Shown piece after piece: positions 27,588 to 42,644 of a stretch of 64,000 nt of DNA. Origin of the DNA: Catenuloplanes niger (GTDB lineage: Bacteria > Actinomycetota > Actinomycetes > Mycobacteriales > Micromonosporaceae). The translations under genes and the position numbers were made by a program. The stretch's first letter is position 1. Each line of letters opens with the position of its first letter. The stretch lies in assembly GCF_031458255.1 (NCBI RefSeq), contig NZ_JAVDYC010000001.1, forward strand, positions 5,217,001 through 5,281,000. Reading direction: 5' to 3'. Below the pieces are notes generated by a model. The model was not told the origin of the DNA, ran no database searches, and saw only the letters and a program-made list of their open reading frames with translations.

Positions 27588-28519
27588 CGCACGAACGCCC
27601 GGGCCCACCGCTGGCCCGGACCACACTGGACCGCTCCGCCCACCGGCGGCGCGACGCCGAATGGCTGGCCGCGGCCTGGGAACGGGCCCGGGTGCTCGTG
27701 CTGGACACCCGCTCCGGCGGGCGCACCCTGATCACCGACGACAACCGGCTGCTGCTCTTCACGCCGGAGAGCGCGCCGCGCGTACCGGTGGAGTCCCGGC
27801 TCTTCCTCGGCGAGGAGCCGGACGGCGGGCCGGTCTTCGCGGTCGACGCGCCGCTGCCCACGGTCGCCGGCGCCCGGCCGGTGAACCTGCGTGACGTGGG
27901 CCACCAGCTCGACGACCGTGACGCCGGGCTGATGACCACCGCGCTGGCGCTGGCGAACTGGCACGCGGCCTACGGCTTCTCCCCGGTCAGCGGCGGCGCC
28001 ACCAGCGCGCACGAGGCCGGGTGGAGCCGGATCGACGCCGGTGGCAAGCAGGTCTGGCCGCGGACCGACCCCGCCATGATCGTGCTGGTGCACGACGGCG
28101 TGGCCGGGCCGGACGGCCGCTGCCTGCTGGGCAACAACGCGGCCTGGACCGGGGCGGCCGACATCCGGCGGTTCTCCTGCCTGGCCGGGTACGTCGAGCC
28201 GGGCGAGTCGGCCGAGGCCGCGGTGATCCGCGAGGTGGCGGAGGAGGTGGGGCTGCCGATCGGTGGCATCAGCTACGTCGCCAGCCAGCCGTGGCCGTTC
28301 CCGGGCTCGCTGATGCTCGGGTTCACCGCGACCGCCGATCCGTCGCTGCCGGTCACGGTGGACCCGGAGGAGATCGTCGAGGCCCGGTGGTTCACCCGGC
28401 GCGAGATCCGCACCGTCCTGGACGGTGGCACGGTGCTGACGCACGACGGACTGCGGGTCGGCCTGCCGATGGGGGCGTCCATCGCGCACTACCTGATCGC
28501 CAACTGGGTGGCGGAGTAG
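27584..28519 (+). CDS. nudC: NAD(+) diphosphatase / NADH pyrophosphatase
   Basis: 311 residues. The Nudix box GYVEPGESAEAAVIREVAEEVG (about 202-223) and the NudC-specific SQPWPFP (234-240) are both intact. The enzyme splits NAD(H) to NMN(H) and AMP and can remove NAD caps from RNA. The usual four-Cys zinc site ahead of the Nudix domain is degraded: where FCxxCG is expected the sequence reads FSPVSGG, and the second Cys pair is missing too. The GTG start overlaps the M16 stop (GTGA). In mycobacteria nudC is likewise near mycoredoxin and uvrD2, so this is the ancestral order. Confidence 0.92.
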   Translation: MTHERPGPPLARTTLDRSAHRRRDAEWLAAAWERARVLVLDTRSGGRTLITDDNRLLLFTPESAPRVPVESRLFLGEEPDGGPVFAVDAPLPTVAGARPVNLRDVGHQLDDRDAGLMTTALALANWHAAYGFSPVSGGATSAHEAGWSRIDAGGKQVWPRTDPAMIVLVHDGVAGPDGRCLLGNNAAWTGAADIRRFSCLAGYVEPGESAEAAVIREVAEEVGLPIGGISYVASQPWPFPGSLMLGFTATADPSLPVTVDPEEIVEARWFTRREIRTVLDGGTVLTHDGLRVGLPMGASIAHYLIANWVAE

Positions 28520-28561
28520 CGGCCGGGGCCCGGGCGCGGCCCGCGGTGCGCGTTCCGGCCG

Positions 28562-28846
28562 TCACCGGGCCTCGTCGGGCAGCGGCTCCAGGTCGCGGGC
28601 CTGCCAGCCACGGGGATCGCCGACTCTGATGATCTTCACGCGCTGGCGGCCGGAGCGCACCGAGCCCATCGCCGACAGCGCCCGCGCGAGGTCGAGCGCG
28701 GCGGACCGGTCCTGCGCCAGCACGGTCTGGCGCCGCGGCTCGGGCGTGGTCCGCTCATCACGCACCGATTTCCCGTCGGCCCACACGGACTCCATCGACC
28801 CCGTCTCCACCGGCCGGATATCGGTGCGGACGATCAGATAGCGCAT
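28562..28846 (-). CDS. Hypothetical protein, 94 aa
   Basis: Starts MRYLIVRTDIRPVETGSM behind a clear GGGGAG site. It is predicted soluble and mixed alpha/beta, with a basic C-terminal half (SGRQRVKIIRVGDPRGWQ). No family is recognised. It is convergent with nudC. The frame opens 30 codons earlier, but the ribosome site favours the ATG at 28846. Confidence 0.6.
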   Translation of the reverse strand: MRYLIVRTDIRPVETGSMESVWADGKSVRDERTTPEPRRQTVLAQDRSAALDLARALSAMGSVRSGRQRVKIIRVGDPRGWQARDLEPLPDEAR

Positions 28847-29107
28847 GATCCACTCCCCAGCGACGCCGTGACCCTCGGTAGTGGCCGGCATGCAATTCCC
28901 ACCTAAGTGGAAAGTGCAACCGTCCACCACGGACATGTTCCTGGCAGCTATTCGGACCCGGCAAGCACGGAGATTTCCGCACGGCTCAGCGCCACCCGAT
29001 CGAGTGAAAGTCTCTCACTTTGCGTAACCCCACCACCGTACGTGAGTTGTCGCCGGGCCGGGGGGCGCGTCGAAGATCAAGATCGGGGCGCGCGGCGGGG
29101 GTCGGTC

Positions 29108-30064
29108 TCAGGAGGAGAGATGCTGGTCCGGAGCGCGACGCTGAGCCGGTGGGTGCACCGTGGCGTGCAGGGTCTCCGCGGCCTCGACGAGCCACCGCAT
29201 GGAGTCCTCCGGGGAGAGTGCCGCGTCGCGGAGCCAGTCGTAGACGGTGGCGTAGTGGCGGACCTCGTCGGCCTCGTTGACGAACATGTCCCGTTCGAGG
29301 GTCTCCACCGCGACCGTCTCCGGGTCCTGCGGGTCGGCGAAGCGGTAGATCGAGAAACTGGTGTGCGCCAGGTACCAGTTGCCGACCGTGGCGGTGCGCG
29401 GCAGCACCCGGATCGTGACGTTGGGCAGCGCACCGATCCGGCGGAGGTGGGCGGCCTGGCCGCGGAGGATGTCGGGCGGGCCGCCGCGGCCGGTGAGCGC
29501 GGTCTCCTCCAGCACCACGTCGTAGCGCGGCGCGTCGTGGCGGCGGGTGAGCAGGGCCTGCCGCGCGATCCGCGCGTGGATCTGGTTCTCCAGGCCCTCC
29601 GGGCTGTGGCCGTCGGCGGGAGGGCTGGCCAGCGGGTGCGCGGAGATCAGGCGAAGGCGCGCGTACTCCGGGGTCTGGAGCAGGCCGGGAACGTAGGACG
29701 GCGCGTACTCCCGGATGTCGACGCAGCCGGCCTCCAACTCGGCCCAGTCGCGCTGCTGCGGCGTCATCACCGGGTAGGCGCGCAGCCAGGCCCGGGTGTT
29801 TCCGGCGTCCCGGGTGATCGCGATCAGCTCGTTGCGGGACTCGCCGTCGACGCCGTAGAGATCGAGCAGGTCGAGCACGTCGCCCAGGTCGGGGCGGCTG
29901 CGGCCGTTCTCCAGACGGGACAGTTTGGAGGCGGAGGCCCAGCCGATCCGCTCGATGACCTGGTCACCGGTGAGGCCGGCGGTCTCCCGCAGCCGGCGCA
30001 GCGCCTGTCCGAGCCGGCGTCGCCGCACTATCGGGCTCGGAGCAGGGGACACCGCAACCTCCAC
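29108..30064 (-). CDS. XRE-family HTH regulator with DUF5753 (Scr1-type)
   Basis: 318 residues. An N-terminal XRE HTH lies at about 15-75 (LGQALRRLRETAGLTGDQV, SASKLSRLENGRSRPDLGDV), followed by the DUF5753 domain (YAPSYVPGLLQTPEYARLRL, RQALLTRR, VVLEETAL). Proteins of this type are abundant in actinomycetes, often beside a small DUF397 gene, and act in development or as toxin-antitoxin-like pairs. No DUF397 gene is adjacent here. It is the last host gene before the integrated element's left edge. Confidence 0.9.
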   Translation of the reverse strand: MEVAVSPAPSPIVRRRRLGQALRRLRETAGLTGDQVIERIGWASASKLSRLENGRSRPDLGDVLDLLDLYGVDGESRNELIAITRDAGNTRAWLRAYPVMTPQQRDWAELEAGCVDIREYAPSYVPGLLQTPEYARLRLISAHPLASPPADGHSPEGLENQIHARIARQALLTRRHDAPRYDVVLEETALTGRGGPPDILRGQAAHLRRIGALPNVTIRVLPRTATVGNWYLAHTSFSIYRFADPQDPETVAVETLERDMFVNEADEVRHYATVYDWLRDAALSPEDSMRWLVEAAETLHATVHPPAQRRAPDQHLSS

Positions 30065-30182
30065 GTGTCAGCCGATCGTTTCGCCATCGCCCATTATGAA
30101 CCGCTTCATTGATACGCGGGGGACGCGCATTGCGAATGTCCAAGGCGCAGATCAATAGAAATCAGGCATTCTGCCGAACAAA

Positions 30183-30222
30183 TACGGCCGCCGATCGTAA
30201 ATGATCAAGATCGGCGGCCGTA
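30183..30222 (-). terminator. Original mycoredoxin terminator, now orphaned
   Basis: Perfect 14-bp arms TACGGCCGCCGATC (30183-30196) and complement (30209-30222), 16 bp beyond the stop codon of the stranded gene fragment. This is a strong minus-strand terminator that belonged to the mycoredoxin gene before the element separated them. Confidence 0.75.
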
Positions 30223-30237
30223 TATATGGCACAGCGC

Positions 30238-30333
30238 TCAGGCGGCGAGCTCCGCGAGATGGGCCTTCACCTGGACGATGGACGGGTTGGTCAGCGCGGA
30301 CCCGTCCTCGAAGCGCAGCGTGGGCACGGTCTG
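30238..30333 (-). pseudogene. Stranded 3' end of the mycoredoxin gene
   Basis: In the minus frame this reads QTVPTLRFEDGSALTNPS followed by IVQVKAHLAELAA and stop, which is the normal C-terminus of an actinobacterial mycoredoxin/glutaredoxin-like protein. It has no start of its own. Its first five codons (QTVPT) coincide with the 15-bp sequence shared with the hybrid gene at 38825-39088. The stretch is what the integrating element cut off and replaced. Confidence 0.85.
30319..30333. repeat. attL core
   Basis: CGTGGGCACGGTCTG; identical to 38927-38941 except for one C/T difference. It lies exactly where mycoredoxin homology stops on the left, with non-homologous DNA and the integrase gene to its right. 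Confidence 0.75.
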
Positions 30334-30382
30334 TAGAGTTGCCCCACTGGCTGAGGTGATCAGTCAGCATGGGGCGGAACCA

Positions 30383-32101
30383 GTGAACAAGCCCAGAGCC
30401 CTGGGTGTCGTCCGCCTCTCGGTCTCGAACGAGAACCAGACGGGCGAGGAGACGCAGCGTAGGCGCATCACGAAGAGGGCCGAGAGCGAGGAGATGGAGC
30501 TGGTCGGCTGGGCGGTCGACATCGACGTCTCCGGCTCCACGTCGCCGTGGATGCGTCCGTCCATCGGTGACTGGCTCACGAACCGCAAGGACGAGTTCGA
30601 CCACATCATCGTCTTGAAGATCGACCGGATCGCTCGGTCGGTCCGCCACCTTACCGGGCTGATGGAGTGGTGCTCGAAGCACGGCAAGGGCCTCATCTCG
30701 TGCGAGGAGGGCTTCGATCTGTCCAAGCCGTGGGGGAAGGTGGTCGTTCAGATCCTCGCGGTTGTGGCGGAAGCTGAGCTGGACGCGATCACCGCACGGA
30801 TCAGAGCTTCGCGCGAGGCCATGCGGCAGCACGGACGGTGGCCGGGCGGTCTGGTCCCGTTCGGCCGACGGTCCGTGAAGGGCTCAGACGGCTTCACGTT
30901 GGAGCTTGATCCCGAGTACGGTCCCGTCCTCAAGGAGATGATCCGGCGGTTCATCGACACGCCCAGCTTCTCGGGGGTGGCGCAATGGCTCAACGAGCAG
31001 GAGATCCCCACGGTCCAGGACATCGCTCGTCTCCGGTCGGCCAGAGGGGAGAGCACGACGCGTCTGATCGCTCCGGAGGCCAGGGGCAGGAAATGGCTGC
31101 CGAACGCGGTCCAGGCGATCCTCACCAACCGGTCACTCCTGGGCGAATACCAGACGGCCGATGGCTCCGTCCTGCGAGGTGACGACGGCGCACCCATCAT
31201 GAGATCGCAGCCGGTCCTCGGCATGGAGGAGTGGGCCGTCCTCCAGGACGCCGTGAACTCCGTGAAGTACAGGAAGCCGCGAGGGTCGTCCTCTGCCCTG
31301 CTCGGTGTCGCGTTCTGCCTCACGTGCGGCAATCCCCTGTACTTCACGAAGGCGGAGCCGGCCCGTAGCAGGAAGGCGCGATACCGATGCCACGGCAACA
31401 AGAGCAAGGGGCAGCCAGCGTGCAAGGGTGCGGCGCTCACTGCGGAGCGCCTGTACGCGTGGGTGGAGGAGTTGCTTCTCATACAGATCGGCGACCTGGA
31501 GATCATGGAGTCGGTCACGAAAGCCGGTGACGACGAGCAGGCCCGCAAGCTCGCGATCATTGACGGCGAGATGAACCAGCTCACGAAGGAGTTCCGGGCT
31601 GGTCGCCTCGAAGCAGTGGCCTACGCCTCCCAGGTCGCCCAGCTTGCCAACGACCGGGAGCAGGCGTTGAAGGCCGGTAAGGCCAAGCCGGTGACCCAAT
31701 GGGTCCCAACAGGGGAGACCTACGGCAACTGGTGGAAGAGGTCAACGGAGGAGGAACGGCGGGAGTTCCTGACCAGGCGTGGGTTCAAGGCGTATGCCGG
31801 TATGGGCTTGCTCGTCATCACTCCCGGGGATCTGCTTGGCTTCCTTGAGCAGCGTCAAGCAATCAGTTTCGGTGACGTGCCTGCCGAAGCCTTCGGTAAG
31901 CCGCATCTCTGGTGGGATAGAGGGGATTATGAGACCCTCGAAGAGGCGAAGGACAAGCTTTACGCCTCGGGCTTCTTTACCCGGTTCTTTCAGGACCTGC
32001 CAGCCGATGCGCCACGTGCGATCATTGATGTAAGCGATAACCTTTACCTGCCTCGGGATAGCGACTCCGACGCAATCGCAGATACCCGCTTATCGAGTTA
32101 G
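30383..32101 (+). CDS. Large serine recombinase (integrase)
   Basis: 572 residues from the GTG at 30383. The N-terminal resolvase domain has GVVRLSVS (catalytic Ser13), IIVLKIDRIARSVRHL and VVQILAVVAEAELDAITARIRA. The recombinase domain starts near WPGGLVPFGRR, and the zinc ribbon uses C312, C315, C336 and C347. A coiled-coil segment (about 365-430) follows. This is the phiC31/TP901-1 class that performs att-site-specific integration. An ATG in frame at 30278 exists but lies in the host part of the junction, so it cannot be the native start. The gene begins about 50 bp inside attL, the usual place for an integrase. Confidence 0.93.
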   Translation: MNKPRALGVVRLSVSNENQTGEETQRRRITKRAESEEMELVGWAVDIDVSGSTSPWMRPSIGDWLTNRKDEFDHIIVLKIDRIARSVRHLTGLMEWCSKHGKGLISCEEGFDLSKPWGKVVVQILAVVAEAELDAITARIRASREAMRQHGRWPGGLVPFGRRSVKGSDGFTLELDPEYGPVLKEMIRRFIDTPSFSGVAQWLNEQEIPTVQDIARLRSARGESTTRLIAPEARGRKWLPNAVQAILTNRSLLGEYQTADGSVLRGDDGAPIMRSQPVLGMEEWAVLQDAVNSVKYRKPRGSSSALLGVAFCLTCGNPLYFTKAEPARSRKARYRCHGNKSKGQPACKGAALTAERLYAWVEELLLIQIGDLEIMESVTKAGDDEQARKLAIIDGEMNQLTKEFRAGRLEAVAYASQVAQLANDREQALKAGKAKPVTQWVPTGETYGNWWKRSTEEERREFLTRRGFKAYAGMGLLVITPGDLLGFLEQRQAISFGDVPAEAFGKPHLWWDRGDYETLEEAKDKLYASGFFTRFFQDLPADAPRAIIDVSDNLYLPRDSDSDAIADTRLSS

Positions 32102-32242
32102 TTGAGGCGTTATGGGCTCTCTTCGGAGAGCCTATAACCGTCTATATGAGCTTCCTTAATGGCTCAGGCTTGGTGCGAGTGTTGCATCAATATTCCGGGC
32201 GGCGGTCTTTTTCTTCGCTGGATATCGGATATTGCCCAGAAG

Positions 32243-32255
32243 CCCCCGTAGGGGG
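32243..32255. repeat. Hairpin CCCCCGTAGGGGG
   Basis: First of three short palindromes with the same loop GTA; the flanking G and C extend the stem to six pairs. Confidence 0.7.
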
Positions 32256-32289
32256 CCATTGGCAGCTATGTGGCTAAACCGTAAAATGC

Positions 32290-32380
32290 TATAGCGGCTA
32301 TGGAGCTGAAATTGTAAACGGTTGGCTGGGTTAACGGTAGGCGGCTAAACCAGCCTTGCAGTATAAGACCCCGTAGGGGT
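32290..32380. repeat. ~90-bp module, copy 1
   Basis: Contains TATAGCGGCTATGGAGCTG, then GTAAACGGTTGG (32314-32325), then a 33-bp block (32348-32380) ending in ACCCCGTAGGGGT. The block matches 32501-32533 at 31 of 33 positions. Confidence 0.75.
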
Positions 32381-32410
32381 TTGTTGGGGTTTAACGGGGA
32401 TATGCGGCTA

Positions 32411-32445
32411 ACCGTAAGCTGGGCTAGCGGCTTACCGTAAGCTGG
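32411..32445. repeat. Short direct repeat ACCGTAAGCTGG
   Basis: Two exact 12-bp copies at 32411-32422 and 32434-32445, 23 bp apart, between the two longer modules. Confidence 0.7.
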
Positions 32446-32534
32446 ATATAGCGGTTATGAGGTGGAGCTGTAAACGGTTGGTGGTTGACCGTAAGCAGGT
32501 AACCAGCTTTGCAGTAGAAGACCCCGTAGGGGTC
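32446..32534. repeat. ~90-bp module, copy 2
   Basis: Contains TATAGCGGTTATG, GTAAACGGTTGG (32470-32481) and the 33-bp block 32501-32533. It ends in the perfect hairpin GACCCCGTAGGGGTC (32520-32534). Confidence 0.75.
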
Positions 32535-32893
32535 TATACAAAGGGTAGGCAGCATAACTGCGAAGCAGTTATTCCGGTTTCGCACGCGCGCGAGGCCGGA
32601 GCGTTTGGGCTGGTCGAGGGTGGGCTGGAGGGTCGGATTGCCGCTTTCGACATCCGCCACCGCCTCAGCGGCCTTCTGGCGTGCTGGGCGGGTCTACCCT
32701 AGACCCCGGGTACCGCCCAGGCTCGTTCGGGCCGCAGTGTAGATCTCAGGCCCCCTGGCGATCCCGTCATGATCTTCGGTGGGGGCGTGGGCTGCCAACT
32801 CTTGAGCACACCGCCGTCGTCCCTGCTGGGCAACCAGAGTGCTCCGCGCTGAGGGCCTTCTGTCGGCACATTTGCTTTGCCGCAGCCGTCGGG

Positions 32894-33697
32894 TTAGCAA
32901 CGTAGCCGGAATGCCTCCCATTCGGCCGAGGCGTCAACCATGCGCTCGGTCCAGGGATCTGTGCTGCCCTTGCCGATATGAGACCATAGCCTCGCGTTTG
33001 CTGTTGCAAACTCGTTGAGTCCTTCGCCTGTCGTTATTTGCCATGTCGGCACTTTGCTTGCCCAGCGTTCGGCCGAGGGTGGCTGATGCCCGGATGCGAT
33101 AAGCCAAATTACCCAGTAGGCGGCATCGAGCCATGGGGCACCTCGGGTGGCCCATCCCCAATCAACGATCCGAGCTTTCCCTTTGTATACGATGATGTTG
33201 GCGTTGTTAAGATCGGTGTGCAGTAGGGAGTCGCCGATGAAGTGGTGAACGCTACCGGGGCGAACGTAGGCTTGAAGTCGCTGGCCGGCATCCCGCAACT
33301 CAATGTCCGGGCGCGGGATTTCGCTCATCTGGGTTAAGAGGTCGACGACTACCGGGACATGAAATGAGCTAGGGCTGTAATCGGCCACGCTGCCTTGCAA
33401 CATCTCGAAGACGAGTACGTCCCAGCCGTATTTCACGACTCGCCCATGAAGCTTCGGCGCAACTGCGTGCACGTGCGGCGCGACTTCGGCTTCTCTTGCC
33501 TGCGTCCATGACCATCGGTTGCCGGATCGGAGCGCCTTGACGAAGAAATGCCCCTTGGCGCTCGCCAGTTTCACCCCCACCGCGCTGTTGAAGCCTTCGG
33601 CTACCGGCTCAACGGTGATCGGGGTTCCTGTGATCTGCTCAATGGCGGCACGGGTCCCTACGGGCAGGGCGTCATACGAGACTCGATGAACTGACAT
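32894..33697 (-). CDS. Aminoglycoside-phosphotransferase-fold kinase
   Basis: 267 residues of the APH/choline-kinase fold. The N-lobe contains VEGF-like PVAEGFNSAVGVKL and the ATP-binding Lys in HFFVKALRSG. The catalytic loop HTDLNNANIIV gives His160/Asp162 (the HxDxxxxN motif), and IVDWGWA gives the metal-binding Asp179. The substrate could be an antibiotic, a sugar or a peptide-derived product. The ATG at 33697 is supported by AGGAAG. It lies downstream of the peptide precursor on the same strand, about 80 bp away, so it may be the last gene of that cassette rather than a resistance gene. Confidence 0.8.
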   Translation of the reverse strand: MSVHRVSYDALPVGTRAAIEQITGTPITVEPVAEGFNSAVGVKLASAKGHFFVKALRSGNRWSWTQAREAEVAPHVHAVAPKLHGRVVKYGWDVLVFEMLQGSVADYSPSSFHVPVVVDLLTQMSEIPRPDIELRDAGQRLQAYVRPGSVHHFIGDSLLHTDLNNANIIVYKGKARIVDWGWATRGAPWLDAAYWVIWLIASGHQPPSAERWASKVPTWQITTGEGLNEFATANARLWSHIGKGSTDPWTERMVDASAEWEAFRLRC

Positions 33698-33777
33698 GTG
33701 AACTTCCTGGTCGACCGGATGGCCCTGGGACGTCTGGCACGACAACGCCCCAGGGTCTTACCGGGTTGTGGCCGTGC

Positions 33778-33942
33778 CTAGCGGTAGGGGTTGTCGTCGC
33801 CGCAACCGCGCTGGTTGCCGCCGGTCAGGTCGTCGATCTGCGTGATGACGACCCCGGTGGGCTCCGGCGCGGGTGCCGAGCGGATCACGGTGCTGAGCGC
33901 CTGCTGCGGGCGGCTGATGATCTCGATCGGGACGGGGCTCAT
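33778..33942 (-). CDS. Candidate radical-SAM-modified precursor peptide, 54 aa
   Basis: Starts at an ATG whose last bases form the stop of the radical SAM gene (ATGA overlap) behind AAGGAGG. The sequence is MSPVPIEIISRPQQALSTVI as a leader-like N-terminus, a Pro/Ala hinge (SAPAPEPTG) and a polar C-terminus ending GGNQRGCGDDNPYR, with one Cys (47), one Tyr (53) and no Trp. Tight coupling to a SPASM enzyme and the leader-plus-small-core layout are typical of RiPP precursors. I recognise no described family. The Tyr one residue from the C-terminus recalls PQQ/mycofactocin logic only loosely. Confidence 0.7.
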   Translation of the reverse strand: MSPVPIEIISRPQQALSTVIRSAPAPEPTGVVITQIDDLTGGNQRGCGDDNPYR

Positions 33943-35063
33943 GAAGCCTCCTTCATGCCGTGCTGACAGTAGTGACTGAGTGGAGCCTTCGCCTCCTGGT
34001 ACACCCGTGCCATGGGTCGGCATACCCGGCAGGTGGATGAGAGCTTGCAGCCCGTGCATCCACCTGTGCGAAGCATCTGGGCGTCTGCGATGCCGGGCAG
34101 ACGCAAGAGCCCTTGCGGGCCTTCGGTGATCAAGCTGATGGGGTTGTCCCGGCCGACCTTGCACATCGTCGCGAAACCGTGCGGGTCGACGTGGAACGAC
34201 GTGTGTCCCGCCGGGCAGCCCTGGAAGACATCGCTCTTGCCGATCAGGTCGGGAACCTGCGTAGCGAGCGTGGAGCCCTTGCCGGTGTAGGTCGGTGAGA
34301 TGGAGGCGTACTCCTTGAACCGCAGGCCGAGATCTCGCACCATCGCTCGCATCTCGTCCAGCTCGGCGACGTTGTGCTTGGTGATGATCAGGGTGACCTC
34401 GACGGGAAGCCCGGCTGCAGCCGCCGCGACGAGCCCGCGATAGGCGTTCTTGAACGCCCCTCGTGTCTGCGTCAGGGCGTCGGCGGTCTCCGGGCTTGCC
34501 CCGTACATCGACACGGTGATCTTGTGCGGCTGACGCCTTCTGAACGCGTCCAGCAGGTCTTCCCGGTAGAGGCGGGAGCCGTTGGTCAAGATCTCCATCA
34601 TCATCCCGGCCGCGTGGGCTCGATCGTACGAGGGCACGAAGTCCGGGTCGATGAGCGGTTCGCCGCCGGTGATCTCGAACCAGATGACGCCCATGTCGCG
34701 CAGCATGTCGATCAGACGCAGCTTGTCCGCGAGCGGTAGCCCGGCGAAGGGGCGTTGTTCGAGGTAGCAGTGCTCACAGGAGAAGTTGCATCCCTTGTTG
34801 ATCTCCCATGAGGCGCGGCTGTACGTGACCGGCAGAACCGACGGTGGCCGGACCACAAGCGCCTCGTTGACCGGGCGCGCCGTCAGGTCCAACCCCCACG
34901 CCTGTCGCGCTACCTCGGCGAACCAGCCGGGCATGACCGCGTTCTGATCGGCCAGGTCGGCAAGCTCGGCGTAGTACCTGGAGGGAAGCTGCATGGCCGC
35001 GTTCTGACCCGCCCGGACAGCGATGAACTTGTCCTCCTGCGGACTGACGATTGCCTGGTACAT
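33939..35063 (-). CDS. Radical SAM/SPASM peptide-maturase-like enzyme
   Basis: 374 residues. The N-terminal ~85 residues could be a peptide-binding (RRE-like) region. The radical SAM cluster motif CNFSCEHC uses C92, C96 and C99, and GGEPLIDPDF is the SAM-binding GGE. The C-terminal SPASM domain has Cys at about 283, 301, 336, 339, 345, 348 and 366, enough for two auxiliary Fe-S clusters. SPASM enzymes modify ribosomal peptides (thioether, C-C cross-link, decarboxylation) or proteins. It starts at the ATG at 35063 behind AGGAGGA and overlaps the start of the 54-aa peptide gene, its likely substrate. Confidence 0.9.
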   Translation of the reverse strand: MYQAIVSPQEDKFIAVRAGQNAAMQLPSRYYAELADLADQNAVMPGWFAEVARQAWGLDLTARPVNEALVVRPPSVLPVTYSRASWEINKGCNFSCEHCYLEQRPFAGLPLADKLRLIDMLRDMGVIWFEITGGEPLIDPDFVPSYDRAHAAGMMMEILTNGSRLYREDLLDAFRRRQPHKITVSMYGASPETADALTQTRGAFKNAYRGLVAAAAAGLPVEVTLIITKHNVAELDEMRAMVRDLGLRFKEYASISPTYTGKGSTLATQVPDLIGKSDVFQGCPAGHTSFHVDPHGFATMCKVGRDNPISLITEGPQGLLRLPGIADAQMLRTGGCTGCKLSSTCRVCRPMARVYQEAKAPLSHYCQHGMKEAS

Positions 35064-35105
35064 CGGTCCTCCTGTCCTGGTCAGTCAGTGGTGGCGCGTG
35101 AGCGC

Positions 35106-35147
35106 GGGCGGGCGTGACGGGAGCGGGGGCATCCGCCACGCCCGCCC
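35106..35147. terminator. GC-rich stem-loop between the CX4CX4C gene and the radical SAM gene
   Basis: GGGCGGGCGTG (35106-35116) pairs with 35137-35147 around a 20-base loop. On the minus strand it could attenuate read-through from the small gene into the radical SAM gene and so set their ratio. Confidence 0.45.
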
Positions 35148-35196
35148 ACTCCCGTCAGGAGGGCCGGCTCTGACGGGCTTCGAGAGGGCTCGGGTT

Positions 35197-35478
35197 TCAG
35201 CGGGAGGTCGCGTCGATCAGGCGGTTGGGCGTTCGGGGAATCCAGCCCATGAACCGTGGCCAGAAGTCGATGTCGGCGGGCTTGGGGTGCCGGACCGCAT
35301 CCGCGATGGCTTCGTGCATGTGGGCTGCCATGTACATCCGGAGTAGGAGCCGTGAATGCCGGAAGGTCCTCAGCAGCGCAGCGCGTCTCTCCTCGCACGG
35401 CCACGCCTGACCACAGCTCGACACCTTGCACGTCCAGTCGGGTCGCGAGGGAGCGTGGAGAGTCGCTGTCTCAGCCAT
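35197..35478 (-). CDS. Small Cys-motif protein (CX4CX4C), 93 aa
   Basis: Starts MAETATLHAPSRPDW behind a strong AGGAGGGAG. The motif WTCKVSSCGQAWPCEERR (Cys 17, 22 and 27 approximately) is followed by a helical, His- and Arg-rich tail. From memory, similar small proteins with a WxC..CGxPWPC pattern occur widely in Streptomyces mobile or regulatory loci and are often labelled flavin reductase without basis. A metal-binding adaptor is plausible. It is the first gene of the minus-strand cassette and divergent from the HTH gene at 35766, with ~290 bp between. Confidence 0.7.
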   Translation of the reverse strand: MAETATLHAPSRPDWTCKVSSCGQAWPCEERRAALLRTFRHSRLLLRMYMAAHMHEAIADAVRHPKPADIDFWPRFMGWIPRTPNRLIDATSR

Positions 35479-35765
35479 CGGTTCTCCCTCCTGACCGTTG
35501 CCGCCCGCCGCCCCTCGCTCGGTTGCTGAGAGCGGCGGGCGGGGCACTGGTGAGTCGATGAGGTGCATCGACGCGAAAACGATCGCATCTGCGCAGCCTC
35601 GGACACACCTCTGTGGTCGGTCGTGGACGATCGGATCTGTGTGTAGGGCTGAGCTGCGGATACACCCATGATCGACGTCGCTTGCCCATTCGAGTGGGCA
35701 ACAGTAGCGTGGCCGTCACGACCGGTGATGACGGATGGCTCGGCATCGGTGACGGAGAGGCCGGA

Positions 35766-36899
35766 ATGGGAGCAGCGGCACAACGCAGCCAGTCCCCGCA
35801 GGCGCGCGGACGAGAGCTGGCACGACAGGGCAAGGATCTCTACATGGAATGCGGGTCGGTCAGCGCCGCCGCTCGCGAGCTGATGAACCGGCACCAGGAT
35901 CTGCCCAGCATCCAGGCGCATCGGTACGCGGCGGGGCTGTCACAGGATCAAGCCGCAGCCCGGTACAACACCGTTGCCGGTAATCAGACCACTCTTGGTG
36001 GAACCACCATCAACGCGTGGGAGAGCTGGGCACGAGCGCGGGGAAGCGCGGGAGCCGGATCACCACCGTCGTTCGCCAGTCTGCTGATCCTCGCTACCGC
36101 GTACGGGCGTGGCCCGCATGGCACCGCGGACGAGACCATCTCGCCGAGTGACCTTGTGCAAGAGGCGTACGAGAAGCTAGGTCCCGAGGACCAACTCGCG
36201 CTGAAGAGCGTGGCCGCTCGTCCCTCCATGACCGCCACCAGCGACGCGCTCCAGCCGCGTAACGCCGTCGTCGGCGGGTCGCCGGGCGTGGACAACATCA
36301 TCGGGCCGGACTTCAACCTCCAGGTGCCTACGATCGACAACGGGAATCCAGCCATCTGTGCGTTCTCGTTGCCCAACCCGAATCCGGGCCAGCTACTCGA
36401 TCTCACCTGGAATACGTTCGGCTTCGGCGTCCAACGCCTGATGAAGCAGATCAAGAGCCTCGGACGACGGCTCAACGCTGACATCTGCTTCGGGATCAAC
36501 GAGGCGGGCCTGGTGATGGCGACCTTCCTCGCCTCAGCCCAGTTCAACCGGTCCGCTATCGGGTACCTCCGGTGCCACCGGGTGAAGAACGAGGTGACCT
36601 TCACCAAGGAGTCCCACTACCCGGAGACGGTCGAAGCGCCGGTCATCGTCATCTGCGACTTCGAGGTGAAGCACGCGGACGTGGTGGGCCTGGTGGCGCG
36701 TGAGCTGCGAGCCCGCTACCCGGGAGCGGAGCTGTACTTCGCTGTCTTCGGCGCGATGACGAAGGGCAACTCGTTGGAGGTAGAGAGCTTCGACGATCTG
36801 ACCGGAGCGACGATTATGAAGGCCGCGAATTTCGAGGCCGTCTTCATCGCCGCGACCATGAGCCCACCCGGCATCGAACCACCGCTTGAGCTGCGTTGA
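35766..36899 (+). CDS. HTH protein fused to a phosphoribosyltransferase-like domain
   Basis: 377 residues. The N-terminal part (about 15-110) contains IQAHRYAAGLSQDQAAARYN followed by a WESWARARG-PPSFASLLILATAYG block, an XRE-like HTH arrangement of actinomycetes. A hinge follows. The C-terminal part (about 235-370) resembles a type I PRTase: ADICFGINEAGLVMATFL, and APVIVICDFEVKHADVVGLVARELR where the PRPP loop (VxxxDD) is expected but the second Asp is replaced. It may be a sensor using a degenerate PRTase fold to bind a nucleotide. Start chosen at the ATG at 35766 (GGAGAGG upstream). The next gene follows after 17 bp. Confidence 0.7.
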   Translation: MGAAAQRSQSPQARGRELARQGKDLYMECGSVSAAARELMNRHQDLPSIQAHRYAAGLSQDQAAARYNTVAGNQTTLGGTTINAWESWARARGSAGAGSPPSFASLLILATAYGRGPHGTADETISPSDLVQEAYEKLGPEDQLALKSVAARPSMTATSDALQPRNAVVGGSPGVDNIIGPDFNLQVPTIDNGNPAICAFSLPNPNPGQLLDLTWNTFGFGVQRLMKQIKSLGRRLNADICFGINEAGLVMATFLASAQFNRSAIGYLRCHRVKNEVTFTKESHYPETVEAPVIVICDFEVKHADVVGLVARELRARYPGAELYFAVFGAMTKGNSLEVESFDDLTGATIMKAANFEAVFIAATMSPPGIEPPLELR

Positions 36900-36916
36900 C
36901 CGTTGGAGAGGCACTG

Positions 36917-37846
36917 ATGGATCAAGCCAGGAACGTTCCCTCGCAGGCTATGAAGATCGCCGAGATGGTCAGATCGGTGATGCTGGAACTGCGACCCCGC
37001 CTCGTAGAGGCTGCGCTGACCGGCCGGCGGGGCGAGAGCGAGAACCTGCGTCACGCGGACAACTTCCTGTCTGAGCACGACCTGTGGATGCATCGGCGTT
37101 ACCGGGAACTCCTCACCCCTGTTCTCGGCGCGTTCGTCTATGCCTCCGAGGAAGCGGAGCCGGAGGTGATCGGCGACGACCCCGACCCCGACCTGTGCGT
37201 GCTGGTGGACCCGCTCGACACGAGCGAACTCGCCGTGCGGGGCGTGCTTGGCTACACGCACGTCATGGTCTACTCACGCGCTGCGGCTCAACCGGTGATC
37301 GCCGTCGTCGGCGACATCTTCCACCACCTTCAGCTCTACGTCGGCGCTCGCGATGAGCAGGGCGTCGACCGAGCCTTCGTCGTGACCGCAGACGGCGAGA
37401 CCTACGAACTCGGTCCGCGTCCACCGAAGCGACTCGCCGAGTCGATGGTGACCAACTTCCTGATGAAGCCCGGTGAACGCTTCCTCCCGCTCTCGCAGAA
37501 GACCCAGCTCATGAACACGCTTGATGAGCCGTCAGAGGATGGCAAGAGCCGGGGCCGTATCGGCGTGGACTTCGGCTCCGTCAGCCTCTGCCATGTCGCC
37601 GCAGGCATGACCGAGGCCGTCATCGAGTTCGCCAAGGGCTTCGCCGTCTGGGACCTCGCGCCAGGCCACTACATCCTGCACGCCGCCGGAGGAACCGTGC
37701 TCGACCTGGACGGCGACCCCGTGCCGCTCGACTATCGCTTCGGCTCGTTCGACGAGATCACCAAGGCCATGGACCGGCGACAGCGGTTCGTCGCTGCGGG
37801 AAGTAGCGAACTGGCGGCGGAAATTGTCACTGCGCTTCGCTCCTGA
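36917..37846 (+). CDS. Inositol-monophosphatase/CysQ-family phosphatase
   Basis: 309 residues. Metal-binding motifs of the family are present in variant form: YASEEAE (Glu78/79; canonical GEE), VDPLDTSE (Asp98, Asp101; canonical DPLDGT) and AVWDLAPGHYILHAAGG (canonical WDxAAG). Two-metal Li-sensitive phosphatases of this fold act on inositol phosphates, PAP, NADP or sugar phosphates. The substrate here is unknown. Preferred start is the ATG at 36917 behind GGAGAGG. Co-transcribed with the HTH-PRTase gene, suggesting a nucleotide- or phosphosugar-related pathway. Confidence 0.8.
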   Translation: MDQARNVPSQAMKIAEMVRSVMLELRPRLVEAALTGRRGESENLRHADNFLSEHDLWMHRRYRELLTPVLGAFVYASEEAEPEVIGDDPDPDLCVLVDPLDTSELAVRGVLGYTHVMVYSRAAAQPVIAVVGDIFHHLQLYVGARDEQGVDRAFVVTADGETYELGPRPPKRLAESMVTNFLMKPGERFLPLSQKTQLMNTLDEPSEDGKSRGRIGVDFGSVSLCHVAAGMTEAVIEFAKGFAVWDLAPGHYILHAAGGTVLDLDGDPVPLDYRFGSFDEITKAMDRRQRFVAAGSSELAAEIVTALRS

Positions 37847-37965
37847 CGGAGGCATTTGACCAGCTCAAGGGTTGTGCGGGCTCGTTCTAACCCGTTCAGA
37901 AAGACTCTGAAACTGTGGCGGAATCTGAGCTGCTATTACCTGCCGGTCCTCGGATGAAGGCGTTA

Positions 37966-37978
37966 GGGGTCGTACCCC
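37966..37978. repeat. Short palindrome GGGGT-CGT-ACCCC
   Basis: Thirteen-base hairpin in the gene-free stretch between the phosphatase and resolvase genes. Its arms resemble, in reverse order, the CCCCGTAGGGG hairpins at 32243-32534. Confidence 0.5.
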
Positions 37979-38031
37979 CACCCTCATGTGTATGCAAACG
38001 TCCTGCTCAGAGGGTGTTCAAAAACGAAGGA

Positions 38032-38136
38032 TTATGAGACGGCTCAGCCGGAGGGCTCGGCGAGGCTGAAACCTTGTCCATAACTCGTCTCGAAACATGG
38101 CTTACGAGCTTGATGTTTTGAGACGAGTTATGAGAC
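38032..38136. promoter_or_regulatory. Resolvase-binding-like palindrome upstream of the recombinase gene
   Basis: CATAACTCGTCTCGAAACAT (38079-38098) and its complement (38113-38132) pair at 19 of 20 positions around a 14-base loop. TTATGAGAC occurs at 38032-38040 and again at 38128-38136, partly inside the right arm. The right arm ends 14 bp before the recombinase start codon. This is a probable res/crossover site or autoregulatory operator. Confidence 0.65.
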
Positions 38137-38145
38137 AGTCTCTGC

Positions 38146-38739
38146 ATGGCGATACCCACTGGCGTCAGCCAGCTCATCGGATATGCCCGTGTCTCCACCA
38201 ACGCACAGGACGCACAGCTACAGCGAGACGCACTCGCTGAGGTCGGGTGTGCCCGGGTCTTCGAGGACAAGGCGAGCGGCAAGAACACCGACCGTGTGGG
38301 CCTCGCTGCCGCGTTGGATTACGCGCGGCCCGGCGACACCCTGTGCGTCTGGAAGCTTGACCGTCTCGGTCGCTCGGTGAAGGACGTGCTCACCATCGCG
38401 GACGATCTCCATGGGCGAGACATCGGCCTGCGCATCCTGACCGGCAAGCTCTCCGGGGTCTACACGCCTACCGGGGAGGGGAAGTTCTTCTTCACCATGA
38501 TGGCCGCCTTCGCGGAACTGGAGCGCGACATCATCCGCGAGCGGACGCGGGCCGGACTGGACGCCGCGAAGGCTCAGGGCCGGACCGGCGGGCGGCCAAC
38601 GGTCGTCAACGAGGACATCCTGACTGTTGCGCGTGCCCGGCGGGCGAAGGGCGAGAGCGTCAACTCCATCGCCAAGGTGCTGGGAGTCTCGCGGGCGACG
38701 CTGCATCGACACCTCGCGGAGCCCGCAGAGGAGCACTGA
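38146..38739 (+). CDS. Small serine recombinase (resolvase/invertase family)
   Basis: 197 residues. GYARVSTNAQ carries the catalytic Ser17, followed by DKASGKNTDRVGLAAALDYARPGDTLCVWKLDRLGRSVKDVL and MMAAFAELERDIIRERTRAGLDAAKAQGRTGGRP. The C-terminal Hin-like HTH reads VNSIAKVLGVSRATLHRHL. It could resolve dimers of the excised element, invert a segment or assist excision. It lies at the element's right end, reading toward attR, behind a 20-bp palindrome. Confidence 0.93.
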   Translation: MAIPTGVSQLIGYARVSTNAQDAQLQRDALAEVGCARVFEDKASGKNTDRVGLAAALDYARPGDTLCVWKLDRLGRSVKDVLTIADDLHGRDIGLRILTGKLSGVYTPTGEGKFFFTMMAAFAELERDIIRERTRAGLDAAKAQGRTGGRPTVVNEDILTVARARRAKGESVNSIAKVLGVSRATLHRHLAEPAEEH

Positions 38740-38744
38740 GCCGC

Positions 38745-38796
38745 GAGCCTGCGACACGGGAAGGCCGGTTGCCGACCGTCCGCGTACCGCAGGCTC
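38745..38796. terminator. Possible terminator at the right end of the element
   Basis: GAGCCTGCG (38745-38753) pairs with 38788-38796 around a long loop. It lies between the convergent resolvase and hybrid mycoredoxin genes, so it may terminate both and replace the orphaned host terminator. Confidence 0.4.
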
Positions 38797-38824
38797 AGGC
38801 GATCTCAGGCTTGTGGAGCTGCGA

Positions 38825-39088
38825 TCAAGCGACCGGAGCCGTACCCGCGATGGCTTCCTTGACTTGCTTGATCGTCGGGTTTGTCATTACGATTTCGCTC
38901 CCGCCAGTGGGGGGAACAATGCGAACCGTGGGTACGGTCTGGTTCCCGCCGTTGACGCTCATCACGAACGCCGCCGCCTCGTCGTCCGCCTCGATGTCCA
39001 CCACCTCGTAGCCGATGCCCGCACGGTCGAGCTGCGACTTCAGGCGATGGCAGTAGCCGCACCAGCTCGTCGAGTACATGGTCAACAT
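38825..39088 (-). CDS. mrx1: Mycoredoxin / glutaredoxin-like protein with element-supplied C-terminus
   Basis: 87 residues. The N-terminal MLTMYSTSWCGYCHRL carries the redox motif CGYC (Cys10, Cys13) of mycothiol-dependent mycoredoxin, which reduces protein-mycothiol disulfides. NQTVPT contains the cis-Pro loop. Residues 1-54 are host-derived. From the att core (38927-38941, encoding QTVPT) onward the sequence VRIVPPTGGSEIVMTNPTIK and tail is element-derived; the original ending is at 30238-30333. The two endings share the MTNP/LTNP motif and helix length, so the hybrid should still fold. Position next to uvrD2 matches Rv3198A. Confidence 0.92.
   Translation of the reverse strand: MLTMYSTSWCGYCHRLKSQLDRAGIGYEVVDIEADDEAAAFVMSVNGGNQTVPTVRIVPPTGGSEIVMTNPTIKQVKEAIAGTAPVA
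38927..38941. repeat. attR core
   Basis: CGTGGGTACGGTCTG, matching attL at 14 of 15 positions. The single difference is a synonymous Val codon change (GTA here, GTG in the stranded copy). Flanks of a rebuilt attP show a weak dyad: GGGGAAC before and GTTGCCCC after the core. Confidence 0.75.
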
Positions 39089-39214
39089 CGCAGGTTCTCT
39101 CCCCTATGACAGACAGTGATGACCCGATCATCATCCCCAACCAGGGCCGATGTGCGGATAATCCCGCGCCCGGCGTGAGGTTTCCCGCGGCGCGATGACC
39201 TAGGCTCGAACGCC

Positions 39215-41365
39215 GTGGGTGACAGCGTCATATCCGGGCTCGACCCGGACCAGCTCAGGGCGGTGACCGCGCCGGCCGGGCCGGTCTGCATCCTGGCCGG
39301 CGCGGGCACCGGCAAGACGCGGGCCGTCACCCACCGGATCGCGCACCGCGTCCGCTCCGCGGAGATCTCCGCCCGGCACGTGCTGGCGGTCACGTTCACG
39401 GCCCGGGCCGCCGCGGAGATGCGCGCCCGGCTGGCCGCGCTCGGCGTCCCCGGCGTGCAGGCCCGCACGTTCCACGCGGCCGCGCTGCGCCAGGTCCGCT
39501 ACTTCGCGCCGCGGATCCTGGACGGCCGGGCGATGCCGCAGCTGCTGGAGAGCAAGGCGCGGCTGGTCACGCTGGCGGCCGGGCGGACCGGCGTGCGCGC
39601 GGACCGGATCGTCGCGCGCGACCTGGCCGGCGAGATCGAGTGGGCCAAGTCGTCGCTGGTCGAGCCGGGGGAGTACCCGGTCGCCGCGGTGAAGGCCACC
39701 CGGGAACCGCCGCTGGCCCCGGAGCGGGTCGCGGAGGTGTTCGCCGAGTACGAGCGGGTCAAACGCTCGCAGGGCGTGATCGACTTCGAGGACATGCTGC
39801 GCGCCGCGGTCTGGGGCATCGAGGAGCACGCGGACGTGGCCGAGGAGGTCCGGTCGCAGTACCGGCACTTCGTGGTCGACGAGTACCAGGACGTGAACCC
39901 GCTGCAGCAGCGCCTGCTGGACGCGTGGCTCGGCGGCCGGGACGACCTGACCGTGGTCGGCGACGCGAGCCAGACCATCTATTCGTTCACCGGCGCCACC
40001 TCGTCGTACCTGATCGACTTCGCCCGCCGGTTCCGCAACGCGACGGTGGTCCGGCTGACTCGCGACTACCGGTCCACGCCGCAGGTGGTCGCGCTGGCCA
40101 ACACGGTGATCGCGGCGGCCCGGGGCGCGGAGGCACGGCTGCGGCTGGAACTGGTCGGCCAGCGCACCCCCGGGCCGGAGCCGGAGCTGCGGATCTTCGC
40201 GGACGAGCCGGACGAGGCGGCCGCGGTGGCCCGCCGCTGCGTCGAGCTGATCAGGTCCGGCACGCCGGCCCGCGAGATCGCGGTGCTGTTCCGGACGAAC
40301 GCGCAGTCCGAGGCGTACGAGGCCGCGTTCACCGACGCGCGGGTGCCGTACGTGGTGCAGGGCGCGGAGCGGTTCTTCGAGCGCACCGAGATCCGCCAGG
40401 CCATGATCGCGTTGCGCGCCGCGACCCGCTCCACGCCGTCCGGGACGCCGCTGCGGACCGCCGTGGTGGACGCGCTCGCCGCGACCGGCTGGGCGCCGGA
40501 CGCACCGCCGCCCGGCGGCGCGGCGCGTGAGCGGTGGGAGGCGCTGGCCGCGCTGGTGCAGCTGGCCGTGGATTTCGCGGCGGTACCGGAGATCCTGCCG
40601 ATCGGCGAGGGCGGGGCCGTGCAGCGGGACGCCACGCTGGCCGGCTTCAACGAGGAGCTGGCCCGGCGCGCCGCGCAGCAGCACGCGCCCGCGCTGGAGG
40701 GCGTCACGCTCGCGTCGCTGCACTCGGCGAAGGGCCTGGAGTGGGACGCGGTGTTCCTGGTCGGGCTGGCCGACGGGACGCTGCCCACCTCGTACGCCCG
40801 GACGCCGGAGGCGCTGGAGGAGGAACGCCGGCTGCTCTACGTCGGCGTGACCCGGGCCCGGCACTGGCTGTGGCTCTCCTACGGGCAGAGCCGGTCGCCG
40901 GGCGGGCGGCCGCGGCGGCCGTGCCGGTTCATGCCGAGCTTCGAGAAGCCGGCCACCGCCACCGCCGGACCGCGGCCGGAGACGCCGAGTCGGAAACCCG
41001 ACCGGCGGCGCGTCCCGATCGCGTCCTGCCGGGTCTGCGGCGCCACGCTGCTGGCCGGCGCGGACCGCAAGCTGGGCCGCTGCCCGGGCTGCCCGAGCGA
41101 CCTCGACGAGGACCTCTACGACCGGCTGGTCGACTGGCGAGCCCGGGTCGCCGGAGGCCAGAAAGTACCTGCATACGTCGTGTTGACGGATGCCACGCTG
41201 GTGGCCCTCGCGGAGCGCCGTCCGAGCCGGCCGGAACAGCTGCTGGAGATCGCCGGGATCGGTCCGCGCAAGCAGCGGCTCTACGGCGCGTCCGTGATGG
41301 CGCTGATCGGCGGCGCGACCGTCGATGAAGTGACCGCCCAAAAAACTTCTGAAAACCCGCATTAA
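39215..41365 (+). CDS. uvrD2: ATP-dependent DNA helicase UvrD2
   Basis: 716 residues. The SF1 helicase core has Walker A GAGTGKTR (29-36), FVVDEYQDVNPLQQ, VGDASQTIYSFTGA, LHSAKGLEWDAVFLVGL and LLYVGVTRARHWLWLS. A tetracysteine zinc module follows (C605, C608, C623, C626) and then an HRDC domain (about 635-705). The architecture is diagnostic of actinobacterial UvrD2, a 3'-5' DNA unwinding motor essential in mycobacteria. The GTG at 39215 is taken as start. The last codons overlap the whiB7 promoter region. Confidence 0.95.
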   Translation: MGDSVISGLDPDQLRAVTAPAGPVCILAGAGTGKTRAVTHRIAHRVRSAEISARHVLAVTFTARAAAEMRARLAALGVPGVQARTFHAAALRQVRYFAPRILDGRAMPQLLESKARLVTLAAGRTGVRADRIVARDLAGEIEWAKSSLVEPGEYPVAAVKATREPPLAPERVAEVFAEYERVKRSQGVIDFEDMLRAAVWGIEEHADVAEEVRSQYRHFVVDEYQDVNPLQQRLLDAWLGGRDDLTVVGDASQTIYSFTGATSSYLIDFARRFRNATVVRLTRDYRSTPQVVALANTVIAAARGAEARLRLELVGQRTPGPEPELRIFADEPDEAAAVARRCVELIRSGTPAREIAVLFRTNAQSEAYEAAFTDARVPYVVQGAERFFERTEIRQAMIALRAATRSTPSGTPLRTAVVDALAATGWAPDAPPPGGAARERWEALAALVQLAVDFAAVPEILPIGEGGAVQRDATLAGFNEELARRAAQQHAPALEGVTLASLHSAKGLEWDAVFLVGLADGTLPTSYARTPEALEEERRLLYVGVTRARHWLWLSYGQSRSPGGRPRRPCRFMPSFEKPATATAGPRPETPSRKPDRRRVPIASCRVCGATLLAGADRKLGRCPGCPSDLDEDLYDRLVDWRARVAGGQKVPAYVVLTDATLVALAERRPSRPEQLLEIAGIGPRKQRLYGASVMALIGGATVDEVTAQKTSENPH

Positions 41366-41400
41366 TTCGTTTGCCCTCTCGCGTGGGAGGGGCTTAGCCT
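41352..41400 (+). promoter_or_regulatory. Probable WhiB7-type autoregulated promoter
   Basis: An AT-rich tract (GAAAACCCGCATTAATTCG) directly precedes TTGCCC (-35, 41371-41376), then 18 bp, then TAGCCT (-10, 41395-41400). An AT-rich patch just upstream of -35 is the known docking site for the WhiB7 AT-hook. It lies at the end of uvrD2 and ~630 bp ahead of whiB7. Confidence 0.6.
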
Positions 41401-41485
41401 CAGATCACACCTCACGAGCGCGGGTCTTCTTGCTGCTCGGACGGGGTGCAACCCGTATTCGTCAACGGCTAGTCGGAGAGAGAAG

Positions 41486-41866
41486 GTGACCCCCGTGGAG
41501 ATCTACACGATGCTGCAGATCCCATCGATGTCCCCTGCCCTCCTGCTGTCCGTTGCCGGTCCGGTCCGGTCCGGTTCCGTGGCGACGCACGTGTCGCCGT
41601 GGCCGGTCAGGTCGATCGTGTCCGACGTCCCGCAGGTGGATCAGGTCTGCACCCAGGCCGAACTCCGGGTGCAAGACGGCCTGCCGGTGGCGTCTGGCGA
41701 GATCGAGCTCCAGGGCACCGCTGTGTCCCTGGTGAGTGGTGGCAACGAGTCCCTCAAGGGCCGCAACGGCTCTACGGGACACAACGGGATCACGGGCAAC
41801 AAGGGCATGGCGAAGCGAGCCTTCGGCGGTGCCCGCGGTGTTCCACCTCGAGGAAGGCCGGTCTGA
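41486..41866 (+). CDS. Upstream ORF in the whiB7 leader, 126 codons
   Basis: Begins GTG ACC CCC GTG GAG behind AGAGAGAAGG and encodes MTPVEIYTMLQIPSM ..., with a later Gly/Asn-rich stretch (KGRNGSTGHNGITGNKG) and a basic end. Third positions are mostly G/C, as in genes. The stop codon (41864-41866) falls inside the first leader hairpin (41860-41878), the arrangement expected if ribosome position controls attenuation. It could also be a small real protein, or only its last part may matter. Confidence 0.5.
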   Translation: MTPVEIYTMLQIPSMSPALLLSVAGPVRSGSVATHVSPWPVRSIVSDVPQVDQVCTQAELRVQDGLPVASGEIELQGTAVSLVSGGNESLKGRNGSTGHNGITGNKGMAKRAFGGARGVPPRGRPV

Positions 41867-41937: not shown

Positions 41938-42031
41938 CGAAGCCCGCACACCGGGTTCGGAAACGACTCCGACCCCGTACGAAGTCGGAAAGCGATCTAC
42001 GAGATCGAAGCGAGAGAGAGGTGACCGGGCG

Positions 42032-42632: not shown

Positions 42633-42644
42633 CCCTTGTTCGAT

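Follow-up and report, generated by a model that had tools for sequence, protein, structure and literature searches.

A large serine integrase element that very probably exchanges the end of the mycoredoxin gene in frame in Catenuloplanes niger and related Micromonosporaceae

The mycoredoxin gene (mrx) of the actinomycete Catenuloplanes niger, in the 64,000-nt stretch of contig NZ_JAVDYC010000001.1 analyzed here (hereafter the window, positions in which serve as coordinates throughout), contains an element of ~8,608 bp (8.6 kb) with a large serine integrase aboard. Sequence comparison makes it very probable that this element carries the last third of mrx at its attachment site (attP), inserts repeatedly and swaps the mrx end in frame. 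An earlier note on this DNA had proposed a serine-integrase element that swaps the 3′ end of mrx, a proposal now backed by the protein domains, empty sites in relatives, three other genomes with the element, a signal of horizontal transfer and a dyad centered on the core. That the donated end is homologous to the native one, that the attP arm is coding and that the swaps are recurrent goes beyond the claims of that note.

Both ends of the element are marked by a 15-bp core (minus strand), at 30319–30333 on the integrase side (attL) and at 38927–38941 on the side of the hybrid gene (attR), with the single C/T mismatch between the copies that had been read at the outset; the sequence common to both ends is CAGACCGT(A/G)CCCACG. 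The stranded native 3′ end of mrx (30238–30333, minus strand) reads QTVPTLRFEDGSALTNPSIVQVKAHLAELAA up to the stop codon and is contiguous with the mrx body in two congeners, G002 and G003. At the opposite end lies the intact hybrid mrx gene (38825–39088, minus strand; 87 aa, CGYC motif); the stranded end and the hybrid gene both lie where the earlier note placed them. The hybrid consists of a host-derived part (38927–39088, minus strand; codons 1–54, with CGYC and up to TVPT), which matches G002 in 159 of 162 nt as far as the core, after which the tails differ, and an element-borne replacement 3′ end (38825–38926, minus strand; 33 residues, with a 15-residue hairpin), which is homologous to the native end yet different. 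The hybrid is a member of the mycoredoxin family (NCBIfam TIGR02200, 100.8 bits vs a cut-off of 89.5; CxxC motif), with a predicted mycothiol-dependent redox activity; a search of the genome at E ≤ 0.001 gave no further match to mrx. The GC content of the element is 63.5% vs 72.5% for the window, the lowest-GC stretch of the element length (in 200-base steps) begins at 30001, and no tRNA gene was found in 26000–43000.

The large serine integrase (30383–32101, plus strand; 572 aa from GTG) contains the Pfam domains Resolvase, Recombinase and Zn_ribbon_recom (PF00239, PF07508 and PF13408, all above cut-off), with the catalytic Resolvase domain followed by the Recombinase domain and the zinc ribbon, and matches the PHROG 95 integrase family (2e-89). 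The stretches VRLSVSN and LKIDRIARS, which we take to be the catalytic motifs (catalytic serine, arginines), are invariant across the four integrases of the complete elements. A small serine recombinase of the resolvase/invertase type (38146–38739, plus strand; 197 aa, Pfam Resolvase and HTH_7) adjoins the replacement end and is 86–98% identical in the three other complete elements. All four complete elements keep this small resolvase, which adjoins the replacement end in three of them and lies deeper inside the element in Actinoplanes sp. DH11; directionality, cargo exchange and resolution are candidate roles.

The window genus is represented in our sample by five genomes, the other four being the congeners G001–G004. 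In G002 and G003, the flanks of the window are contiguous at the core and continue into the native short end, which agrees with the prediction that joining the flanks would restore a normal frame. Relatives sharing the same C-terminus in the absence of any empty site would have spoken against the swap; instead, there are empty sites with the native C-terminus, in these two congeners and in G209 outside the genus. In the sample of the family Micromonosporaceae, 295 of the 300 genomes match mrx at E ≤ 1e-10, whereas the integrase has matches in 11 at E ≤ 1e-60 and in 4, including the window, at ≥79% identity. The complete element together with a stranded native end is found in four of the 300 genomes, namely the window, G001, Actinoplanes flavus NEAU-H7 (G237) and Actinoplanes sp. 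DH11 (G145), and in the latter three the same type of element occupies the same mrx codon; because the same junction recurs in these genomes, the junction at the core is not due to chance. Between A. flavus and its close sister G209, which has an empty site, the mrx bodies are identical at 161 of 162 nt and the downstream flanks are 94.8% identical, and in A. flavus 8.9 kb are inserted at the core. At the level of sequence, the locus displays the regenerated target, displaced fragment, internal integrase and empty sites in relatives that mark a target-restoring genomic island. The claim that the site breaks a nudC-mrx1-uvrD2 neighborhood stands in part: two genes already separate nudC and mrx in the empty-site genomes G002 and G003, and the element therefore enlarges an existing separation and does not split adjacent nudC and mrx genes.

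In the searches made, the element was not seen to spread beyond the family. In a sample of the order, two of 397 genomes, both of the window genus, match the integrase at E ≤ 1e-90 (A. flavus and DH11 are absent from these matches and evidently lie outside that sample). A profile of the long tail matches 98 of the 397 order genomes at E ≤ 1e-33, and among the matches listed from outside the family all are of short-tail size (222–240 nt). A search of genome_contigs returned DH11, A. flavus and one distant 30% match.

The donated end was compared across 74 mrx genes, from the window and 73 other genomes, taken from among the matches listed (to E ~2.6e-31) and fewer than all 295; further long ends could exist in divergent genera beyond these 74. 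The number of residues between TVPT and NP is 10 in 57 genes, 15 in 12 and 14 in five, and the solved Mycobacterium tuberculosis homolog has the short form. Among the 14-residue forms, G040 alone was counted as swapped; those of the g5 and g11 genomes (L057, L115, L116 and L117) appear to be native and were grouped with the short forms in the tree described below. The helix sequence of the g5 forms resembles the element tail, and a lineage of the g5/g11 type, or that of G033, could be the source of the tail captured by the element. The replacement-type end is also present in G001, G004, A. flavus, DH11 and others. It aligns with the native end (TNPTIKQVKEAIA / TNPSIVQVKAHLA), from which about half of its residues differ (amino acid identity of 0.50 to G002 over 26 aligned codons). 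The C-terminal third that the earlier note called foreign does differ from the native end but is itself the end of a mycoredoxin, with a hairpin 5 residues longer. Serine-integrase insertions in rumA are described as yielding frame-changed ends (PMC4701971), showing that chance ends exist, and the attP of the present element might likewise read in frame by coincidence, the new end not being a selected mycoredoxin end. The probability of such a coincidence seems very small, given that the donated end can be aligned with native ones, that it stays in frame in each of the 13 swapped genes and that its ratio of nonsynonymous to synonymous differences (pN/pS) is about 0.3.

The pN/pS values, which are pairwise, with pairs that are not independent, and uncorrected for saturation, are 0.27 for tails with the element present (4 genomes, 6 pairs), 0.36 for those without a complete element (7 genomes, 21 pairs) and 0.33 over 11 swapped genomes (55 pairs; G040 and G033 left out), compared to 0.38 for 45 native ends and 0.15–0.23 for mrx bodies. 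These values fit purifying selection on the donated ends about as strong as that on the native ends. The stranded native ends give 0.29 (6 pairs), that is, no relaxation, and most of the divergence among them may predate insertion. In the window, an in-frame stop upstream of the stranded end is followed by ten codons without ATG, GTG or TTG before the core, and in DH11 the upstream frame is open for 70 codons with no start. The corresponding frame is open for 259 codons in G001 and for 91 in A. flavus, with possible starts in both, and accordingly the silence of the stranded end can only be presumed. The open frame of G001 (L006 6968–7786) is antisense to the integrase and runs into the stranded native tail; it is probably fortuitous in high-GC DNA.

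Large serine integrase sites are defined by a short common core and an attP dyad around the crossover. When the element-side halves are joined, the putative attP comprises a left half at 30324–30351 (minus strand), the arm of which lies outside the mrx frame, and a right half at 38904–38931 (minus strand), which codes for mrx residues 53–62 (β3 and turn; residue numbers counted from coordinates). In each of the four complete elements, the best dyad has its centre between core positions 10 and 11, with 16–17 of 28 pairs, and the seven empty sites tested score 8–12 at the same centre. At core position 9, the attR of the window has A, as do G002 and G003, and attL has G, a pattern that fits a crossover on the right side of this position. 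The AlphaFold2 model of the hybrid keeps the β-α-β-α-β-β-α order, with β3 at residues 54–57, β4 at 66–69 and a helix at 73–80; because residues 53–62 overlap β3 in this model, the right attP arm encodes β3 and the enlarged turn. The arm motif CGCATNGTTCCC is present in all four complete elements and in four of the eight other 15-residue forms (8 of 12 altogether), compared to none of the 62 other mrx genes, and GTT accounts for 0–3% of the Val codons in uvrD2 and nudC of the 11 genomes checked. The simplest reading of these sequences is that a constraint on the DNA would act on top of the protein constraint in the coding arm.

The recurrence of the swap is apparent on a tree of uvrD2, which adjoins mrx, built for 54 of the 74 genomes (rows of ≥600 aa; 20 dropped) with hand-chosen short-tail relatives; this tree shows the interspersion of swapped rows, not rates. 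Thirteen changes are required to account for the 13 swapped rows (12 if the long-branched G033 is left out), a tree holding the three swapped rows of the window genus together is rejected (p = 0.008 in the approximately unbiased test, p-AU), and well-supported pairs of swapped and short-tail sisters include G237/G209 (100/99), G235/G173 (97/93) and G004/G002 (100/93). The nearest mrx body (first 162 nt) belongs to a short-tail genome for 11 of the 13 swapped genes, the exceptions being G001 and G004. At fourfold sites, the window and G001 are 0.63 (nudC), 0.69 (hypothetical protein), 0.74 (DUF5753), 0.76 (mrx body) and 0.77 (uvrD2) identical in host genes, as opposed to 0.83–0.99 in the element genes and 0.86 in the tail. 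For the window and G004, the relationship is reversed, the tail being 0.65 identical vs 0.75–0.86 for host genes and body, and both patterns argue for arrivals independent of one another. In the comparison of the window with A. flavus, the element genes (0.35–0.54) are no more alike than the host genes (0.58–0.62), and no recent transfer is thus shown for this pair. The M16b rows were dropped from the fourfold comparison owing to a poor query, with third-position identity below amino acid identity.

Vertical inheritance of a single old insertion, or of a long tail present in the ancestor, with subsequent precise excision in the short-tail species, would be compatible with the stranded native end, which lacks an internal stop in all four complete elements, such that excision could restore the gene. 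Nevertheless, this scenario appears quite improbable in view of the 13 changes required for 13 swapped rows and the rejected monophyly of the swapped rows of the window genus, the greater synonymous-site similarity of element genes than of host genes between the window and G001, the tail of G004 that is more diverged than its host genes, and the short form of most mrx genes, the M. tuberculosis homolog included. The comparisons point to repeated horizontal insertion rather than one old event, with the horizontal signal itself seen in one pair.

Nine swapped genes have no complete element and could represent later stages of the same process. In G004, which has no integrase or resolvase match, the element-type end persists, and after it come fragments of the element (140 bp at 86% and ~90 bp at ~80% identity) and of the native end region (62 bp at 85%); G276 also has clear debris. 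The other seven carry little or none: G235 and G129 yield weak matches (34 bp, E = 0.002, at the same offset, and 31 bp, E = 1.4e-4, respectively), and no convincing element DNA was found within 2.5 kb after the gene in G101, G247, G090, G040 and G033. Debris was searched with blastn (the tblastx lists looked like high-GC noise and were not used). Of other serine integrases near the element-less swapped tails, only fragments in G276 were found, in a check that is weak given that four of the seven extra probes look badly extracted.

Several points weigh against an element that inserts repeatedly and donates its mrx end. The dyad score of the window is reached by 42 of 2000 shuffles (5, 5 and 5 for the other three elements), and the four complete elements are related, such that their dyads are not four independent observations. 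The confidence of the AlphaFold2 models is moderate, with predicted local distance difference test (pLDDT) values of 83 for the best and 70, 68, 67 and 62 for the other four. The tree is based on one gene that adjoins mrx, and 26 of its 51 inner branches are well supported; no relative of the element was confirmed in viral_contigs with the peptide patterns tried. Among the nine swapped genes that lack a complete element, seven carry little or no element DNA, and for these, homologous transfer of a hybrid gene or, in G033, a native long form is possible. A transferred hybrid gene is likely in G235, the mrx body of which matches G058 at 147 of 162 nt vs 141 of 162 for its uvrD2 sister G173.

A serious alternative, to which we assign somewhat less than even chances, is that the debris-free swapped ends were acquired from a hybrid mrx gene, either by homologous recombination or by transfer of that gene, with no insertion in the lineage. 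The lack of element DNA in the five genomes listed above, the departure of the G235 body from that of its sister and the short, conserved nature of mrx are all in its favor. Conversely, debris directly follows the tail in G004 and G276, similarity to the short-tail relative resumes only ~0.63 kb after the mrx stop in G235 and ~0.48 kb in G101, and the mrx bodies of the window, A. flavus and DH11 match those of local short-tail relatives. Under the preferred reading, the debris-free ends would likewise derive from the element.

The proposed course of events is as follows. A small integrative element would bring the large serine integrase, the small serine recombinase, cargo and a fragment corresponding to the last third of mrx at attP, and the integrase would recombine attP with the attachment site in the host mrx (attB) at the conserved QTVPT codons. 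Insertion would detach the native 3′ end and splice the homologous end of the element in frame to the 5′ two thirds of the host gene, the coding attP arm forming β3 and the enlarged hairpin turn, so that the cell would keep one full-length and presumably functional mycoredoxin with a new β3-β4-α3 end. Such insertion would have been repeated in different lineages, and later loss of the integrase would fix the swapped end because excision would then be impossible without help.

The backbone of the element consists of the integrase, the small resolvase and the tail, and the cargo differs between elements. In the window, it encodes a protein with an APH-like phosphotransferase fold (32894–33745, minus strand; Pfam APH, 25.9 bits, just over the cut-off of 23.2), a radical SAM protein (33939–35063, minus strand; Pfam Radical_SAM, 3.3e-16), a 123-aa protein without a family match that is found in G001 and A. 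flavus (35197–35568, minus strand), a 428-aa protein without a Pfam or PDB match (35613–36899, plus strand) and an inositol monophosphatase-like protein (36896–37846, plus strand; Pfam Inositol_P, 1.9e-14). The 428-aa protein looks phosphoribosyltransferase-like by eye only. All five proteins are common to the window, G001 and A. flavus and absent from DH11, where the same backbone (L048 4292–10805) carries a 1256-aa open reading frame without a Pfam match and a 531-aa DUF6119 protein. The cargo at 32894–37846, common to two genera, may encode a small pathway for biosynthesis or modification. The radical SAM protein has PADLOC matches among viperin models (4.7e-15); given that the same protein matches 37 radical SAM families in NCBIfam far below cut-off, no defense role is drawn from this. 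PADLOC gave no match for the two large cargo proteins of DH11.

The seven main open reading frames of the element include no virion genes (the PHROG matches are to integrase, invertase, DNA-binding and radical SAM families only) and, among Pfam and NCBIfam matches, no relaxase or conjugation genes; transfer between cells would therefore probably need an outside vehicle. The integrase has relatives in 1054 phage records, none of which covers 80% of the query in one place and all of which are below 60% identity; the top matches are mycobacteriophage integrases, ~32% identical, and Bxb1 is not among the best 20 listed. On these grounds, and with none confirmed in viral_contigs by the peptide patterns tried, a phage origin was rejected. 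An SCCmec-type cassette was likewise dismissed, the NCBIfam Ccr models scoring 32–41 bits vs cut-offs of 700–900 and the target being mrx, not rlmH.

The integrase of the Escherichia coli element e14 belongs to the tyrosine class, and rlmH stays intact after insertion of the staphylococcal cassette chromosome (SCC), with only the last codons shared. Islands that regenerate their target gene are known and reconstitution is described as common (PMC12884075, PMC12424338), and as in the target-reconstituting islands addressed by TIGER/Islander, a regenerated target and a displaced fragment mark the ends of the present element; the usual case, however, involves tRNA genes and tyrosine integrases (PMC4383910) rather than mrx and a serine integrase. 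The e14 element at icd also supplies the 3′ end of a protein gene and displaces the native one (163 bp), but the supplied end is a conservative change (PMC6379469), whereas here the length and about half of the residues differ and the integrase is a large serine recombinase. SCCmec and the enterococcus cassette chromosome at rlmH resemble this element in that large serine recombinases insert DNA with variable cargo into the 3′ region of a conserved gene and remnants are left, but they employ the CcrAB pair (PMC6222049); in mrx, one third of the protein is exchanged, and the attachment arm encodes a strand and a loop. The serine-integrase integrative and conjugative elements at rumA of streptococci similarly rely on a single serine integrase and exchange the 3′ part of a protein gene, but there the frame is changed and the gene is counted as disrupted, as were protein genes in all 29 serine-integrase insertions of the same survey (PMC4701971), unlike the homologous end in mrx, which keeps the frame. 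Finally, Bxb1 provides an actinobacterial large serine integrase acting in a protein gene, groEL1, but its insertion inactivates GroEL1 and, in the available text, no replacement end is described (PMC9262239). In the accessible parts of the literature searched, there is no description of an attachment arm that encodes part of a host protein fold or of swapped ends that outlast the element, and papers naming mycoredoxin and integrase together are, judging by titles and abstract starts, not on this subject. The excerpts of PMC3783163 and PMC10654092 add nothing on gene restoration by serine integrases, and that of PMC10654092 does not mention mycoredoxin or glutaredoxin. Thus, target-regenerating islands, e14 at icd and SCC at rlmH are known, and what is new is a serine integrase that would provide a small protein with a divergent last third, joined in frame, and whose coding attP arm forms part of the fold.

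The element illustrates a way to avoid disruption of the target: it brings its own compatible end for the target protein, and its attachment arm is placed in a hairpin that tolerates it. The target codons of the integrase are conserved in the mycoredoxins read and could be useful for vectors, and the empty, occupied, decayed and tail-only sites form a graded natural series in which the effect of mobile DNA on core proteins can be studied. The broader proposition, for and against which the evidence seems evenly balanced, is that in Micromonosporaceae a core redox protein recurrently receives a β3-β4-α3 module from such elements, with a single stretch of DNA serving as attP arm and hairpin under both constraints and the swapped module remaining under purifying selection after decay of the element. 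If this is the case, mobile elements would rewrite a core protein in this family repeatedly and traceably.

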